DNA of 64,000 bases from Fictibacillus phosphorivorans (lineage in GTDB: Bacteria > Bacillota > Bacilli > Bacillales > Fictibacillaceae). The position numbers and the translations under genes were made by a program. The DNA lies in the NCBI RefSeq assembly GCF_001629705.1, contig NZ_CP015378.1:1736001-1800000 (forward strand), in the 5' to 3' direction. The notes under the pieces are model-generated. The model was given only the letters and a program-made list of their open reading frames with translations, had not been told where the DNA came from and searched no databases. Below are positions 60,028-64,000 of this stretch, piece by piece. Within the stretch, counting starts at the first letter, position 1; each line of letters starts with the position of its first letter.

Positions 60028-60483
60028 ATGCATTCACGATCGAATGACCTTATCTTAAAAACAACAACAAATATCATTGTTTTTGTTATTCTAGCTTTTT
60101 CTATTAACATGCTTTTTTCAGGACATAATGCACCTGGAGGAGGATTTATTGGAGGATTGATGGGAGCAGGAGCATTTCTTCTTCTCTACGTTTCCTACGG
60201 ATTACAGCCTGTACATAGAATCTTGCCGATTAACTTTACGCACATGATAGCGGCTGGATTAATGATCGCCATTCTCACTGGTGCTGGTTCCTTTGTTTTA
60301 GGTGTTCCATTTTTGAGTCACAGTTTTGGCTATTTTCAACTCCCGTTGTTAGGAAAAACAGAGCTTGCTACAGCGATGCTCTTTGATTTAGGAGTATATT
60401 TGACAGTAATCGGTGTTACGATGACCATTATCCTCTCAATTGCAGAAGATAAGATCGAGAAAGAAGTAGGGGAAGGGAACTAA
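60028..60483 (+). CDS. MnhB/MrpB-like membrane protein, stand-alone
   Basis: The 151-residue protein has four hydrophobic segments. Its likeness to the MrpB/MnhB subunit of multi-subunit Na+/H+ antiporters is strong: FSGHNAPGGGFIGGLMGAGAF, LTGAGSFVLGVPFLSHSFG, LGKTELATAMLFDLGVYLTVIGVTMTIIL. No other Mrp subunit is encoded nearby, and MrpB alone is not known to transport ions. It occupies the place of yneI between ccdA and ccdC and is 2 bp from ccdC, suggesting a tie to that membrane redox system. This link is inference. Confidence 0.85.
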   Translation: MHSRSNDLILKTTTNIIVFVILAFSINMLFSGHNAPGGGFIGGLMGAGAFLLLYVSYGLQPVHRILPINFTHMIAAGLMIAILTGAGSFVLGVPFLSHSFGYFQLPLLGKTELATAMLFDLGVYLTVIGVTMTIILSIAEDKIEKEVGEGN

Positions 60484-60485
60484 CC

Positions 60486-60950
60486 GTGTTTTTTATTGCG
60501 AGTACATGCTTTGCCATCGTTATGGCAGTGATTGTTTTTAATTTCCGAATGAAAGAAACAAGAGAACCTGTGACGACCAAAAAGATCATCATACCTCCAC
60601 TGGCTATGAGCACAGGCTTTCTACAGTTCGTGATTCCTGCTTTTCATATCACCTGGACGGAAGCAGGGGAGGCGTTCTTAGTCGGTGTCATGTTTTCCGT
60701 ATTCCTTATCATGACAAGTAAATTTGAGATTAAAGGTGATCATGTATATTTGGTCCGATCGAAAGCTTTTATCTTTATTATTATCGGATTGTTCGCCATT
60801 CGCTTAGCTCTAAAGTGGTATATTGGTTCAACGATATCTATCTTTGAAACAAGTTCATTATTTTTCATCGTAGCGTTTGGAATGATCCTTCCTTGGCGAC
60901 TTGCCATGCTCGTTTTATTCAATAAAAAGAAAAACGAGATCGCCTTGTAA
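60486..60950 (+). CDS. ccdC: CcdC (YneJ), DUF1453 membrane protein
   Basis: The 154-residue protein has four to five membrane segments and the motifs FRMKETREPVTTKKIIIPPLAMSTGF and VYLVRSKAFIFIIIGLFAIR of the CcdC family. It is genetically linked to CcdA though not essential for cytochrome c synthesis. GTG 60486 follows GGGGAAGGG. It is the last gene of the unit. Confidence 0.9.
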   Translation: MFFIASTCFAIVMAVIVFNFRMKETREPVTTKKIIIPPLAMSTGFLQFVIPAFHITWTEAGEAFLVGVMFSVFLIMTSKFEIKGDHVYLVRSKAFIFIIIGLFAIRLALKWYIGSTISIFETSSLFFIVAFGMILPWRLAMLVLFNKKKNEIAL

Positions 60951-60966: not shown

Positions 60967-61001
60967 GAAAACCCCTGAATCTAAATGATTCAGGGGTTCT
61001 T
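60967..61001. terminator. Convergent terminator between ccdC and yneK
   Basis: AACCCCTGAATC and its complement GATTCAGGGGTT around TAAAT, with T-rich ends on both strands. Confidence 0.92.
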
Positions 61002-61426
61002 TATGCGAGTAAAGAATGATAAGGTTTGATATCGATGTTTTTCTTTTTTAAAGTTTTGATCAGCCATTTGTGATCTCTTTTGGGTGTTGCGATGATATAG
61101 CCGCGAATGATTAAATCTTGTGACATTGCACTTGCCTTTTCTTGTAATGCTAATTCACCGATTTTACCAGCGATCTTTTCTTTCGCTACATCTCTGAAAA
61201 GTTCGGGAACAGGAGCTACTAATTCGTTTAAGAGTTTCTTCTGATCATCAGTCCATAGATGAATGGTTTGGTTGATGTAATGTTCTTGCCAATCTAAAAT
61301 TGATTTTCCATCTTCTTTAGGTAACCGTTTTAAAAATTTCCGAAACATAAAATATCCGCCGATGGCAAACATGGTAAACAAAAAAACGGACCATAACACG
61401 ATAAAAGTGATGAACCATCCAGACAA
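61001..61426 (-). CDS. yneK: DUF2621 membrane-anchored protein YneK
   Basis: The 141-residue protein has one N-terminal membrane helix (SGWFITFIVLWSVFLFTMFA) and a soluble domain with RKFLKRLPKEDGKSILDWQEHYI, APVPELFRDVAKEKIAGKIGELAL and IATPKRDHKWLIKTL. TTG 61426 is preceded by AGGTGG. The frame stays open further upstream to 61531, but that extension runs through the tRNA gene and is not real. Function unknown; the ccdA-ccdC-yneK order is shared with B. subtilis. Confidence 0.85.
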   Translation of the reverse strand: MSGWFITFIVLWSVFLFTMFAIGGYFMFRKFLKRLPKEDGKSILDWQEHYINQTIHLWTDDQKKLLNELVAPVPELFRDVAKEKIAGKIGELALQEKASAMSQDLIIRGYIIATPKRDHKWLIKTLKKKNIDIKPYHSLLA

Positions 61427-61453: not shown

Positions 61454-61550
61454 TGGCGGGACCATGTGGGAATCGAACCCACCGGAGACGACACGCGCCT
61501 CCCAAAAGGTTTTGAAGACCCAGGCAAGCACCAGCTACACATCTGGCCCC
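61454..61550 (-). tRNA. selC: tRNA-Sec (anticodon UCA)
   Basis: On the minus strand a 97-nt tRNA ends in encoded CCA (61454-61456), with discriminator G. The T-arm GTGGG-TTCGATT-CCCAC is perfect, and a long variable arm pairs GGAGGCG with CGTCTCC. The anticodon loop CTTCAAA gives UCA. The acceptor pairs GGGGCCA with TGGTCCC, extended by a G.A at pair 8, consistent with the long acceptor of bacterial tRNA-Sec. The D stem shows only about 3 pairs and the anticodon stem 4 by eye, weaker than expected. Length, long variable arm, UCA and selB next door support selC. Confidence 0.88.
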
Positions 61551-61659
61551 AAGTAAAATCTCTAGCTCGCTATTGCATTATACAGCATTTTACCCCTAAA
61601 CGACAAGACTTGTGCTTTACTCCGCACGGTAGGGGATGGCGGTTTGTCGAACGGTGGTG

Positions 61660-61737
61660 TAGCGCGAATGTAACAGGACGTACAAACGACTATAACAGAT
61701 GACAAGTATAACAGATGATTTTTTCCACTGTAACAGT
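61660..61737. repeat. Four TRTAACAG direct repeats between selC and selB
   Basis: TGTAACAG (61669), TATAACAG (61691), TATAACAG (61707) and TGTAACAG (61729) are in the same orientation with start-to-start spacing 22, 16 and 22 bp. The two central copies extend to TATAACAGATGA. They could be a regulator's binding sites for the divergent selC and selB. Confidence 0.5.
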
Positions 61738-61743
61738 CCGACC

Positions 61744-61789
61744 TGTGGACAAGTGTGAATAACTTGTTCTGTGGATAACCTGTGAGTAT
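61744..61789. promoter_or_regulatory. DnaA-box-like cluster upstream of selB
   Basis: TGTGGACAA (61744), TGTGAATAA (61754), TGTGGATAA (61770, a perfect reverse-strand TTATCCACA) and TGTGAGTAT (61781) lie in one orientation within 46 bp. The first two differ from the consensus by one base and the last by two. The rest of the 390-bp selC-selB gap holds nothing else I can name. Confidence 0.5.
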
Positions 61790-61940
61790 ACAGAGGTGAA
61801 TAAATATACATTCGTTTATACCGATCTGGGAAATAATGCTTGATAGTGTAAATTCGACATCGAATAATGCGTTATTCTTGTTTTTTACAACTCCTTTTCA
61901 TAAAGTGTAGAAGAGTATGTACATATAGGTGGTTAAACAT

Positions 61941-63830
61941 ATGACGATTAAATTTTATACGATAGGAATGGCAGGACATATTGATCACGGCAAAACGACG
62001 CTAACAAAAGCTTTGAGTGGTATCGATACCGATACACTTAAAGAAGAAAAAGCGCGTAAAATCACGATTGAACCAGGGTTTGCGCCATTTCCTTTAACAA
62101 ATGAACTGCATACCTCTATCGTAGATGTACCGGGTCATGAAAAGCTGATCCGTCAGATGATCGCTGGTGTGGCAGGGATCGATCTAGTGCTCCTTGTAAT
62201 CGCTGGAGATGAGGGTGTGATGCCTCAAACGAGAGAACACTTTGAGATTCTTTCCTTCTTAGGCATCGAAAAGGGAATCATAGTGGTTACAAAGTCAGAT
62301 ATGATTGACGATGAGATGAGATTGTTAGTAGAAGAAGACATTATTGAACTTACAAACTCATCTGTTTTTGAAAATTTTCCCATTCATTTCGTGGATAGTG
62401 TTTCTTCAGCTGGCATTGACGAACTAAAACGTGAAATGATTAACCTCTTGAAAGACACTCCGGTTAAATCTTCACAAGGAGCTTTTCGCATGCCGATCGA
62501 CCACATCTTTTCAGTTAAAGGACAAGGTACTGTTGTAAGAGGAACCGTCTATGAAGGTCAGGTGCAGGAAGGTGATGAACTTGTTGTTCAGCCAGGGAAC
62601 GATAAAGTAAAGGTGCGAAAACTTCAAGTACATAAACAAGAAGTACAAGCTGCTAGAGCTGGTCAAAGAGCAGCACTAAACCTTTCAGGTGGTTCTAAGG
62701 GTGATTGGAAAAGAGGACATGTTTTAGTAGAACCGAATGTTTTTTCGACAACAGACACTATTGATCTCGTATTATCAACGGGTAAAGGGTGGCAAGGGAA
62801 AATAAAACAACGCTCTCTTATTAAATTTTATTGTGGAACTTCTGAAGTGATGGGGAAACTTGTTCTTTTTGATCGGAATGAACTTGAAAACAATGAAGAT
62901 CATATCTATTGTCAAGTTCGATTAGAACAAGAGATCGTTACGAAAAGAGGTGATCGTTTCATCTTGAGACGACCTACTCCAGAAGAAACGATCGGAGGAG
63001 GAGAAGTTCTCGAACCAAACGGAACGGTCTATAAGTTTGGAACAGAAACGATCGAACGATTAAAAAGGAAGCATGAGGGAACCCCTAGTGAACGTATCTT
63101 ACAGTTGCTTAATAAAGAAGGATCGTTGACAGAACTAGAACTCAAAAGGTCGATTGGAATGGATGAGGAAGTATTTCAATACACGATGGAAGAATTGTTG
63201 CGTGAAGGTGCTGTGGAACAAATACAGAATTATTTAGTTTCTGATTCCACCATACAGCATATTGAATCTAGCATTATGAACAAACTTCAAAACTTTCATG
63301 AGGAGTATCGTTTAAGGCAAGGTATACCTAAGGCAGAGATTGTTCAATCTTTACAAAGTGAAATAAATCCTAAGATAATCAATTCGCTTCTTGAAAAATG
63401 GATCGGAGAATCGACCATTTTGATCACAGATCAATTTGTTCATTTATCTCATTTCACTCCGCATTATCCAGAAAAATGGGCGAAAAGAATGATGAATGTT
63501 CTTTCTTTGTTGGAAGATGCCCAGCTTGAGCCGGACGATCTGCGGAACCTCTATAACGCTCAGCAACTCCCAGAAGCTCTCTATCAAGAGTTCAAATATT
63601 TTTTACTAAGAACAGATCAAGTGATCATGCTTTTTGACGAGGTATTTTTGAGCAGGAAAGCATTTGATTCAGCGGTTGAACAACTGCGTGCACATACGGA
63701 TTCATCTTTTACCGTACAAGAAGCTAAAGCAGTTCTTCATGCATCAAGAAAGTTTTTAATTCCAATCTTGGAGAGCATGGACTCAAAAGGATATACGACG
63801 CGAGAAACTAATGCCAGGAAATGGGTGTAG
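61941..63830 (+). CDS. selB: Selenocysteine-specific elongation factor SelB
   Basis: SelB brings selenocysteinyl-tRNA to UGA codons marked by a SECIS hairpin. The 629-residue protein has an EF-Tu-like G domain with GHIDHGKTT (about 12-20), SIVDVPGHEKL and VVTKSDM, and domains II-III with KGQGTVVRGTVYEGQVQ. The C-terminal half is built of winged helices (RILQLLNKEGSLTELELKRSI and later repeats) that bind the SECIS RNA. ATG 61941 has AGGTGG 8 nt upstream. It is full length and intact. Other parts of the pathway (selA, selD) must be elsewhere. Confidence 0.95.
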   Translation: MTIKFYTIGMAGHIDHGKTTLTKALSGIDTDTLKEEKARKITIEPGFAPFPLTNELHTSIVDVPGHEKLIRQMIAGVAGIDLVLLVIAGDEGVMPQTREHFEILSFLGIEKGIIVVTKSDMIDDEMRLLVEEDIIELTNSSVFENFPIHFVDSVSSAGIDELKREMINLLKDTPVKSSQGAFRMPIDHIFSVKGQGTVVRGTVYEGQVQEGDELVVQPGNDKVKVRKLQVHKQEVQAARAGQRAALNLSGGSKGDWKRGHVLVEPNVFSTTDTIDLVLSTGKGWQGKIKQRSLIKFYCGTSEVMGKLVLFDRNELENNEDHIYCQVRLEQEIVTKRGDRFILRRPTPEETIGGGEVLEPNGTVYKFGTETIERLKRKHEGTPSERILQLLNKEGSLTELELKRSIGMDEEVFQYTMEELLREGAVEQIQNYLVSDSTIQHIESSIMNKLQNFHEEYRLRQGIPKAEIVQSLQSEINPKIINSLLEKWIGESTILITDQFVHLSHFTPHYPEKWAKRMMNVLSLLEDAQLEPDDLRNLYNAQQLPEALYQEFKYFLLRTDQVIMLFDEVFLSRKAFDSAVEQLRAHTDSSFTVQEAKAVLHASRKFLIPILESMDSKGYTTRETNARKWV

Positions 63831-63833
63831 GAT

Positions 63834-64000
63834 GTGAGAGTTGTCTTTTTCACACCATACTATAAACAAAACCGTGGAAATTCAACGACGTCTAAACGAT
63901 TAGAACATGGATTGTCTGAGAAAGTTGACCTTTCTATGTTTTCATATGAAGAAACAAGTGTACATGCTAGCCTTTTTGATTGGATGGAAAAAGCAGATTT
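63834..64000 (+). CDS. N-terminal part of a probable glycosyltransferase, cut by the window end
   Basis: An open frame starts at GTG 63834, 3 bp after the selB stop, and runs off the window. The 55 visible residues begin VRVVFFTPYYKQNRGNSTTSKRL (written here in parts: RVVFFTPYY, then RGNSTTSKRLEHGLS). A beta strand, TP-x-Y and a RGN-x-TT loop near the N-terminus are typical of GT-B glycosyltransferases (family 4 style). Close spacing suggests co-transcription with selB. The function cannot be settled from this fragment. Confidence 0.5.
   Translation, partial: MRVVFFTPYYKQNRGNSTTSKRLEHGLSEKVDLSMFSYEETSVHASLFDWMEKAD

Follow-up and report, generated by a model that had tools for sequence, protein, structure and literature searches.

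The 64 kb stretch of the Fictibacillus phosphorivorans genome analysed here (the window; G000:C1:1736001-1800000, part of the 4.23 Mb single-contig genome G000) ends within a locus for selenocysteine (Sec) decoding, which we followed past the 3′ edge in an overlapping stretch that extends beyond it (L006, G000:C1:1796000-1815999). We consider it quite likely that this locus is a selenium-utilisation island, intact and probably inherited vertically, that includes a selenium-dedicated glycosyltransferase of family 4 (GT4). Judging from the sequences, it is very probable that Sec decoding operates in this organism with SelD and SelW as its products. Flanked by yneK and an aconitase gene, the island reads selC (reverse), selB, GT4, phnD, phnE and phnC (forward), selD with its Sec codon (reverse), and selW with its Sec codon and selA (forward):

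Window 61454-61550, minus strand: selC, tRNA-Sec (ARAGORN tRNA-SeC; Rfam RF01852).
Window 61941-63830, plus strand: selB, selenocysteine-specific elongation factor, 629 aa (TIGR00475 and Pfam).
L006:3835-4830, plus strand: GT4 glycosyltransferase, 331 aa (PF00534); its first 167 bases are window 63834-64000, and it ends at G000:C1:1800829.
L006:4851-5747, plus strand: PhnD-like binding protein.
L006:5757-6515, plus strand: PhnE (TIGR01097, above cut-off).
L006:6524-7267, plus strand: PhnC (TIGR02315, above cut-off).
L006:7306-8361, minus strand: selD, UGA at codon 18 (406.3 bits).
L006:8455-8691, plus strand: selW, 78 codons, UGA at codon 11 (PF10262).
L006:8745-10124, plus strand: selA (544.9 bits).

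In bacterial Sec decoding SelD makes selenophosphate, SelA turns Ser-tRNA-Sec into Sec-tRNA-Sec, and SelB brings the latter to UGA codons. An initial annotation of the window had described a 97-nt tRNA with a UCA anticodon and an encoded CCA end, together with a full-length SelB carrying intact GTPase motifs 390 bp away on the other strand, and both descriptions were borne out. ARAGORN found a single tRNA in the 64 kb, a tRNA-SeC with anticodon tca, and Rfam RF01852 matched at 61458-61550 with 58 bits against a gathering score of 47 (E 3.7e-9), so that both tRNA models accept selC. The gene is 97 nt long, and its 3′ CCA is encoded (TGG at 61454-61456 of the plus strand). The divergent selB, at an intergenic distance of 390 bp, codes for a protein that scores 372.8 bits with TIGR00475 of NCBIfam (cut-off 242.25), with residues 8-628 covered, and in which Pfam recognises a GTPase domain, domain 2, a beta-barrel typical of SelB and two winged-helix domains of the SelB type. 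GHIDHGKT, DVPGHE and TKSD, which we take to be its GTPase motifs, are all intact. The ATG at 61941 was preferred over the GTG at 61929 as start codon because the AGGTGG just 5′ of it resembles a ribosome-binding site.

The genes selA and selD, for which the initial annotation had proposed a genome search, are located in the same locus about 3-6 kb past selB, outside the window; SelA, SelB and SelD are all of full length and above their model cut-offs. The expectation of at least one selenoprotein was likewise supported by in-frame UGA codons in both selD and selW. The latter gene is absent from an ordinary listing of open reading frames (ORFs), as its UGA is taken for a stop. Its PF10262 match (G000:C1:1804457-1804672) contains one TGA and reaches 70.1 bits against a cut-off of 22.6, the gene has a clear ribosome-binding site, and its product carries the CMMU motif of the Rdx family (CxxU). 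Three selenoprotein families, FdhA, SelD and SelW, were searched in this genome. Formate dehydrogenase, which the initial annotation had named as an example, had to be rejected as a selenoprotein here, since the two homologues over the cut-off are both cysteine (Cys) forms: each has NCSRYC, with CQTP or CQSP at the catalytic position and no internal stop. The catalytic motif of the Sec enzyme is given as UHxP in PMC13188914. Among these three families, Sec decoding in this genome would serve SelD and a hidden SelW instead of formate dehydrogenase.

As the initial annotation had anticipated for bacterial selenoprotein genes, a conserved hairpin resembling a selenocysteine insertion sequence (SECIS) lies 3′ of the UGA in both selD and selW. 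In selD an 8-bp stem starts 25 nt past the UGA and presents a GUU loop 33 nt past it. Over 19 distinct sequences (20 read) 99.3% of the cells of this stem are paired, and one pair is changed on both sides, in three sequences. The selW hairpin has a 6-bp stem that starts 16 nt past the UGA, with a GUY loop 22 nt past it, and all 204 of 204 cells are paired over 34 distinct sequences (36 read). Three of the six pairs show changes on both sides (16 cells). When the stems were slid to other positions as a control, 20-63% of the cells were paired. Covariation amounted to 0.169 against 0.128 after shuffling for selD (2/500 shuffles as high) and to 0.308 against 0.175 for selW (0/500), values that related sequences may reach even without structure; the number of doubly changed pairs in selW did not exceed that of the shuffles (119/500). 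Some of the paired changes in selW alter amino acids in step, as in KAASFAE to KAVSFTD. This suggests that the RNA pairing is being maintained. A genome-wide search with a model of the 19 selD hairpins returned selD alone (89.6 bits, E 1.4e-29), the next match having an E of 0.11. This model is too specific to selD to exclude further selenoproteins, because it missed selW as well.

The trait is nearly universal in the window's family, and the statement of the initial annotation that Sec decoding is patchy holds across the order, where SelB was found at E <= 1e-70 in 179 of 397 genomes, and not within the family, where SelB exceeds the cut-off in 32 of 34. That B. subtilis lacks the trait, as annotated, is in line with the 14 control genomes, of which only two, E. 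coli and M. jannaschii, had SelB at the same threshold. SelD occurs in the identical set of 32 family genomes, each time with exactly one in-frame UGA, and G021 and G029 lack both proteins. SelW, each with one UGA, is present in 26 of the 34; the eight genomes without it are seven of genus g3 plus G029. Among 80 further genomes of the order we found SelW in 36 of 40 with SelB and no GT4, in all 20 with GT4 apart from selB and in none of 20 without SelB, which makes 56 of the 60 SelB genomes, all 56 with one TGA. A further 40 loci came from outside the family; there all 30 readable SelD genes (two further alignments fell short of the site) and all 18 SelW genes have UGA as the Sec codon. All 82 SelW matches taken together (26 from the family, 56 from the order) have one in-frame TGA, and there are no Cys forms. 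Where Sec decoding is absent, SelW thus seems from these sequences to have been lost instead of converted to Cys.

The position of the island is probably ancestral. The following genes make up its upstream flank in the window:

61001-61402, minus strand: yneK-like gene, DUF2621 (PF11084, 235 bits); 61402 is the limit of the scanned stretch, not a start codon.
60486-60950, plus strand: ccdC (PF07301, 176 bits).
60028-60483: MnhB-domain protein (PF04039), the one ORF between ccdA and ccdC.

The ccdA-ccdC-yneK synteny of the initial annotation holds for the flanking ccdC and yneK and fails in a detail, as the MnhB-domain ORF separates ccdA from ccdC; B. subtilis has yneI at this position. We examined 21 family loci (the one of the window and one each from 20 of the remaining 31 SelB genomes, with about 2.5 kb taken upstream). 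Aconitase lies downstream of selA in 20 of them, DUF2621 upstream in 14 and ccdC in 12. Of 20 loci from further families of the order that have GT4 after selB, 16 show aconitase downstream of the sel genes, and three of these 16 also have ccdC and DUF2621 upstream. These conserved flanks fit an ancestral position with loss elsewhere. From a comparative perspective, it is therefore the second half of "inserted or kept", as the initial annotation had put it, that agrees better with the aconitase neighbour, and the island is probably intact and vertically inherited. In 97.7 kb of G029, a SelB-less member of the family, none of the genes of the yneK-aconitase junction was found. A locus that is decaying, or was recently acquired and stays unexpressed, would agree with the two family genomes that lack SelB over the cut-off and with G008, where the roughly 2.5 kb preceding selB contain no selC. 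With SelA, SelB and SelD full length and over their cut-offs, SECIS stems apparently under selection at the RNA level and aconitase at the same place in nearly every family locus, such a fate is hardly credible.

The GT4 gene starts 3 bp beyond the end of selB. As selB, GT4, phnD, phnE and phnC all lie on the plus strand with gaps of 3-20 bp, they probably form a single operon. GT4 and PhnDEC accompany the sel genes in 16 of the 21 family loci; those without them belong to g2 (one) and g3 (three), and one is partial (L056). To survey the order, we ran a profile built from 16 family GT4s over the 397 genomes (E <= 1e-40). GT4 was present in 89 genomes spread over 37 of 135 genera, and SelB occurred in 88 of these 89 as compared to 91 of the 308 without GT4 (Fisher 3.6e-36, a value that overstates independence since the genomes are related). 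The sole exception, G230, has a partial SelB directly before GT4 on the same 4.8 kb contig, which brings the count to 89 of 89. A sample of 398 genomes from the phylum (GT4 at E <= 1e-35, SelB at E <= 1e-60) added 16 GT4 genomes outside the order, all 16 with SelB, against 266 of 398 overall (hypergeometric 0.0013). A pattern search for GT4 in named genomes yielded just three close Fictibacillus loci (92, 82 and 82% identity). It is highly probable that this GT4 belongs specifically to selenium metabolism.

Alternatively, the locus could be a plain Sec-decoding locus in whose operon an ordinary sugar-transfer gene and ordinary phosphonate/phosphite uptake genes merely happen to reside. GT4 enzymes are common, the one studied here falls below the cut-off of every one of the 25 families shown, the substrate-binding protein (SBP), PhnE and PhnC exceed phosphate/phosphonate-type cut-offs (TIGR01098, TIGR01097, TIGR02315), with PtxB as the nearest solved SBP, and some Sec-decoding relatives lack both GT4 and PhnDEC. 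In another alternative, GT4 would modify tRNA-Sec or SelB, both macromolecules of Sec decoding, and make no small molecule; the strict co-occurrence of GT4 with SelB in our samples and the 3 bp between the two genes in the window's genome speak for it. The loci in which GT4 does not follow selB bear on both alternatives. We examined 39 of these from the order, made up of the 37 lowest-scoring among the 89 matches plus two with higher scores whose selB is listed on another contig; among the remaining 50, the position of selB is unlisted and the locus was not examined in G061, G138, G162, G189, G212 and G214.

When the neighbours were assigned by tblastn, with proteins from this genome and its relatives as queries, the run GT4-SelD-PhnD-PhnE-PhnC-CE4 emerged in 16 of the 39 loci and the same run without CE4 in two more, so that GT4-SelD-PhnDEC is found in 18. 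GT4-SelD-CE4 and GT4-PhnE-PhnC-CE4 occur once each and GT4-CE4 ten times, and nine loci have none of these partners. Altogether SelD adjoins GT4 in 19 loci and the CE4 deacetylase is present in 28, with gaps in the gene runs mostly below 130 bp. That genomes with GT4 have SelB even where GT4 does not follow selB, and that it is SelD and not a phosphonate gene that joins GT4 and PhnDEC in the separate gene run, makes a set of ordinary genes quite improbable. A role in modifying tRNA-Sec or SelB is very improbable, given a deacetylase, SelD and a transporter as the commonest neighbours and the fact that half of the SelB genomes in the order sample lack GT4. In two of the 39 loci (L091 and L093) GT4 does adjoin selC and selB, albeit in divergent orientation.

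The single CE4 protein that was scanned is a polysaccharide deacetylase (PF01522). Outside the order, CE4 follows GT4 in one of 16 loci, and in nine of the 16 a PIG-L family protein precedes it on the same strand, at gaps of 13-145 bp. One of these nine was scanned and matched PF02585, GlcNAc-PI de-N-acetylase, and the remaining eight share 54-58% identity with it. No SelD or PhnD was seen beside GT4 in these 16 loci, several of which lie on short contigs. Since two unrelated deacetylases stand beside one clade of GT4, its product may carry N-acetylglucosamine (GlcNAc), as the gene neighbourhoods suggest.

The GT4 itself scores 57.6 bits with the SenB model TIGR04348 (cut-off 300) and 45.6 bits with the BshA model TIGR03999 (cut-off 273.7), both far short of the respective cut-off. 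In the 50 rows that Foldseek listed for its predicted structure (pLDDT 90.6), the top TM-scores are those of SenB chains (TMq at most 0.79, TMt at most 0.81), with a root-mean-square deviation of 2.5 Å over 300 residues and about 17% identity. PMC10702425 and PMC10891094 name the residues with which SenB binds selenophosphate and the UDP-sugar, and we matched counterparts in 92 GT4s by motif, by eye. G19, N20, T23, T85, D86, R155, K158, E231 and E239 have counterparts in 90-92 of the 92, of which R-x-x-K and E-x7-E are general to GT4 enzymes, and in the phosphate loop the sequence is GNxxT, the same as that given for SenB (N20 in 92/92, T23 in 91/92). Two features differ from SenB: the counterparts of R22, R61 and T83 are not conserved in the 92 sequences, and in place of the EGGAHV motif that PMC10891094 gives for SenB, 89 of 92 have EGQ, mostly followed by P or S.

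Because the counterparts of R22 and T83 vary, we rate a selenosugar synthase, and the wider pathway proposed below, as slightly less likely and a BshA/MshA-like GT4 as slightly more likely. An enzyme of the latter type would supply the sugar moiety for a low-molecular-weight thiol or selenol that delivers or buffers selenium for SelD, with an acceptor other than selenophosphate. BshA is general in Bacillus, and at the phosphate-loop position it has GG in place of the GNxxT shared by SenB and the GT4 described here. The latter also differs from the BshA-BshB and MshA-MshB systems in that it occurs only in SelB genomes among those searched. We regard the BshA/MshA-like function as rather unlikely. 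That the GT4 is a SenB-like selenosugar synthase using selenophosphate is plausible, although we hold this with slightly less than even confidence. In sum, the link between GT4 and selenium is strong, and it is the product that we infer. As in senABC, where SenB stands with the SelD-like SenC, an enzyme of GT4 fold adjoins a selenophosphate synthetase (in 19 of the 39 loci), and the module differs from senABC by its deacetylase and transporter partners.

The SBP of the transporter falls between known families. It is over the cut-off of TIGR01098 and below that of the PhnD model, and with TIGR04553, "putative selenate ABC transporter", it reaches 186.7 bits, short of the cut-off of 250. The nearest solved structures are PtxB proteins, and an STSG stretch is present. 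Compared to importers of the PhnD/PtxB type, it is thus the SBP that is intermediate, whereas PhnE and PhnC are above their cut-offs. Inspection of the ORFs listed for the 20 kb, some of which were also scanned by family, showed no gene recognisable by eye as one for phosphonate breakdown. The company of PhnDEC with SelD, GT4 and the sel genes suggests a selenium oxyanion, perhaps selenite, as the putative substrate. That the transporter carries a selenium compound seems somewhat better than an even chance, and this PhnDEC-type importer would be a possible selenium source for these relatives of Bacillus. According to a 2026 review (PMC13188914), a high-affinity transport system specific for selenium is yet to be identified in prokaryotes.

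We tentatively propose, as a reading that is more open to doubt than its separate parts, that in Bacillales and some other Bacillota SelD supplies GT4 for the synthesis of 1-seleno-GlcNAc or a selenophospho-sugar, with deacetylation by CE4 or, in other lineages, by the unrelated PIG-L enzyme, and a dedicated PhnDEC-type importer of selenium oxyanions. The PhnDEC transporter would import the oxyanion and SelD would convert selenium to selenophosphate, while SelA, SelB and selC would place Sec at the UGA of selD and selW. GT4 would tap the same selenophosphate pool and join selenium to a UDP-sugar, most likely UDP-GlcNAc, to give a selenosugar that in many relatives may be N-deacetylated by the partner enzyme. 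With SelD being a selenoprotein in its own right, the selenosugar pathway would depend on the Sec machinery just as SelW does. Since every SelD read carries a Sec codon, the pathway together with SelW could be a main reason for keeping Sec decoding. If true, this would help to explain why the trait is retained where, as in this genome, formate dehydrogenase is not a Sec enzyme. The strictness with which one GT4 clade is tied to Sec decoding makes a new small molecule containing selenium a testable prediction.

The Sec locus itself is of a known type, and the GT4 module is a variant of the type that combines SelD with a selenium glycosyltransferase, known from selenoneine. The set selA-selB-selC-selD is that of a bacterial Sec-decoding locus, with UGA genes and their SECIS-like hairpins added in the cluster; it differs by the GT4 and the PhnDEC-type transporter inside and by SelD and SelW in place of a Sec formate dehydrogenase. 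The matches share the CMMU/CMQU motif of SelW-like selenoproteins (PF10262, CxxU), and in the annotated loci selW adjoins selD and/or selA. SelW and SelD are known bacterial selenoprotein families (PMC13188914), both rank as the most widespread selenoproteins of ocean samples (PMC2398784), SelD alone may maintain the Sec trait in some settings (PMC13188914), and Helicobacter mustelae has SelD as its sole selenoprotein (PMC4607533). In the literature searched, which was seen in part and mostly excludes subscription papers, so that the negative is weak, we found no description of a GT4-SelD-PhnDEC-deacetylase module; a search for Fictibacillus and selenocysteine in the literature covered also returned nothing.

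Several minor observations concern individual loci. L048 (G008:C11:58400-74400) contains selB, selD, selW and selA, and neither ARAGORN nor Rfam finds selC within about 2.5 kb upstream of its selB. G030 has two selB genes over the cut-off, one on C81 and one on C89 (L056); the L056 copy comes with selC and most of selA, and the stretch holds no selD. A LysR regulator, a candidate for LysR_Se, separates GT4 from selD or phnD in nine of the 20 linked loci outside the family (L101, L104, L106, L107, L109 and L115-L118); none was recognised in the ORF list of the window's own locus. PMC5322559 describes regulators of the LysR_Se type in the vicinity of sel genes. The downstream ORF of L150-L152 (456-486 aa) was considered as a deacetylase by likeness to the eye and rejected, as that of L151, the only one scanned, matched no Pfam family. 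L093 has an ORF of 302 aa between selD and phnD that resembles a sugar epimerase, by eye only. In seven f26 loci (L092, L097, L161, L167 and L169-L171) GT4 is followed by an ORF of 161-169 aa, which in L092 is a flavin reductase (PF01613).

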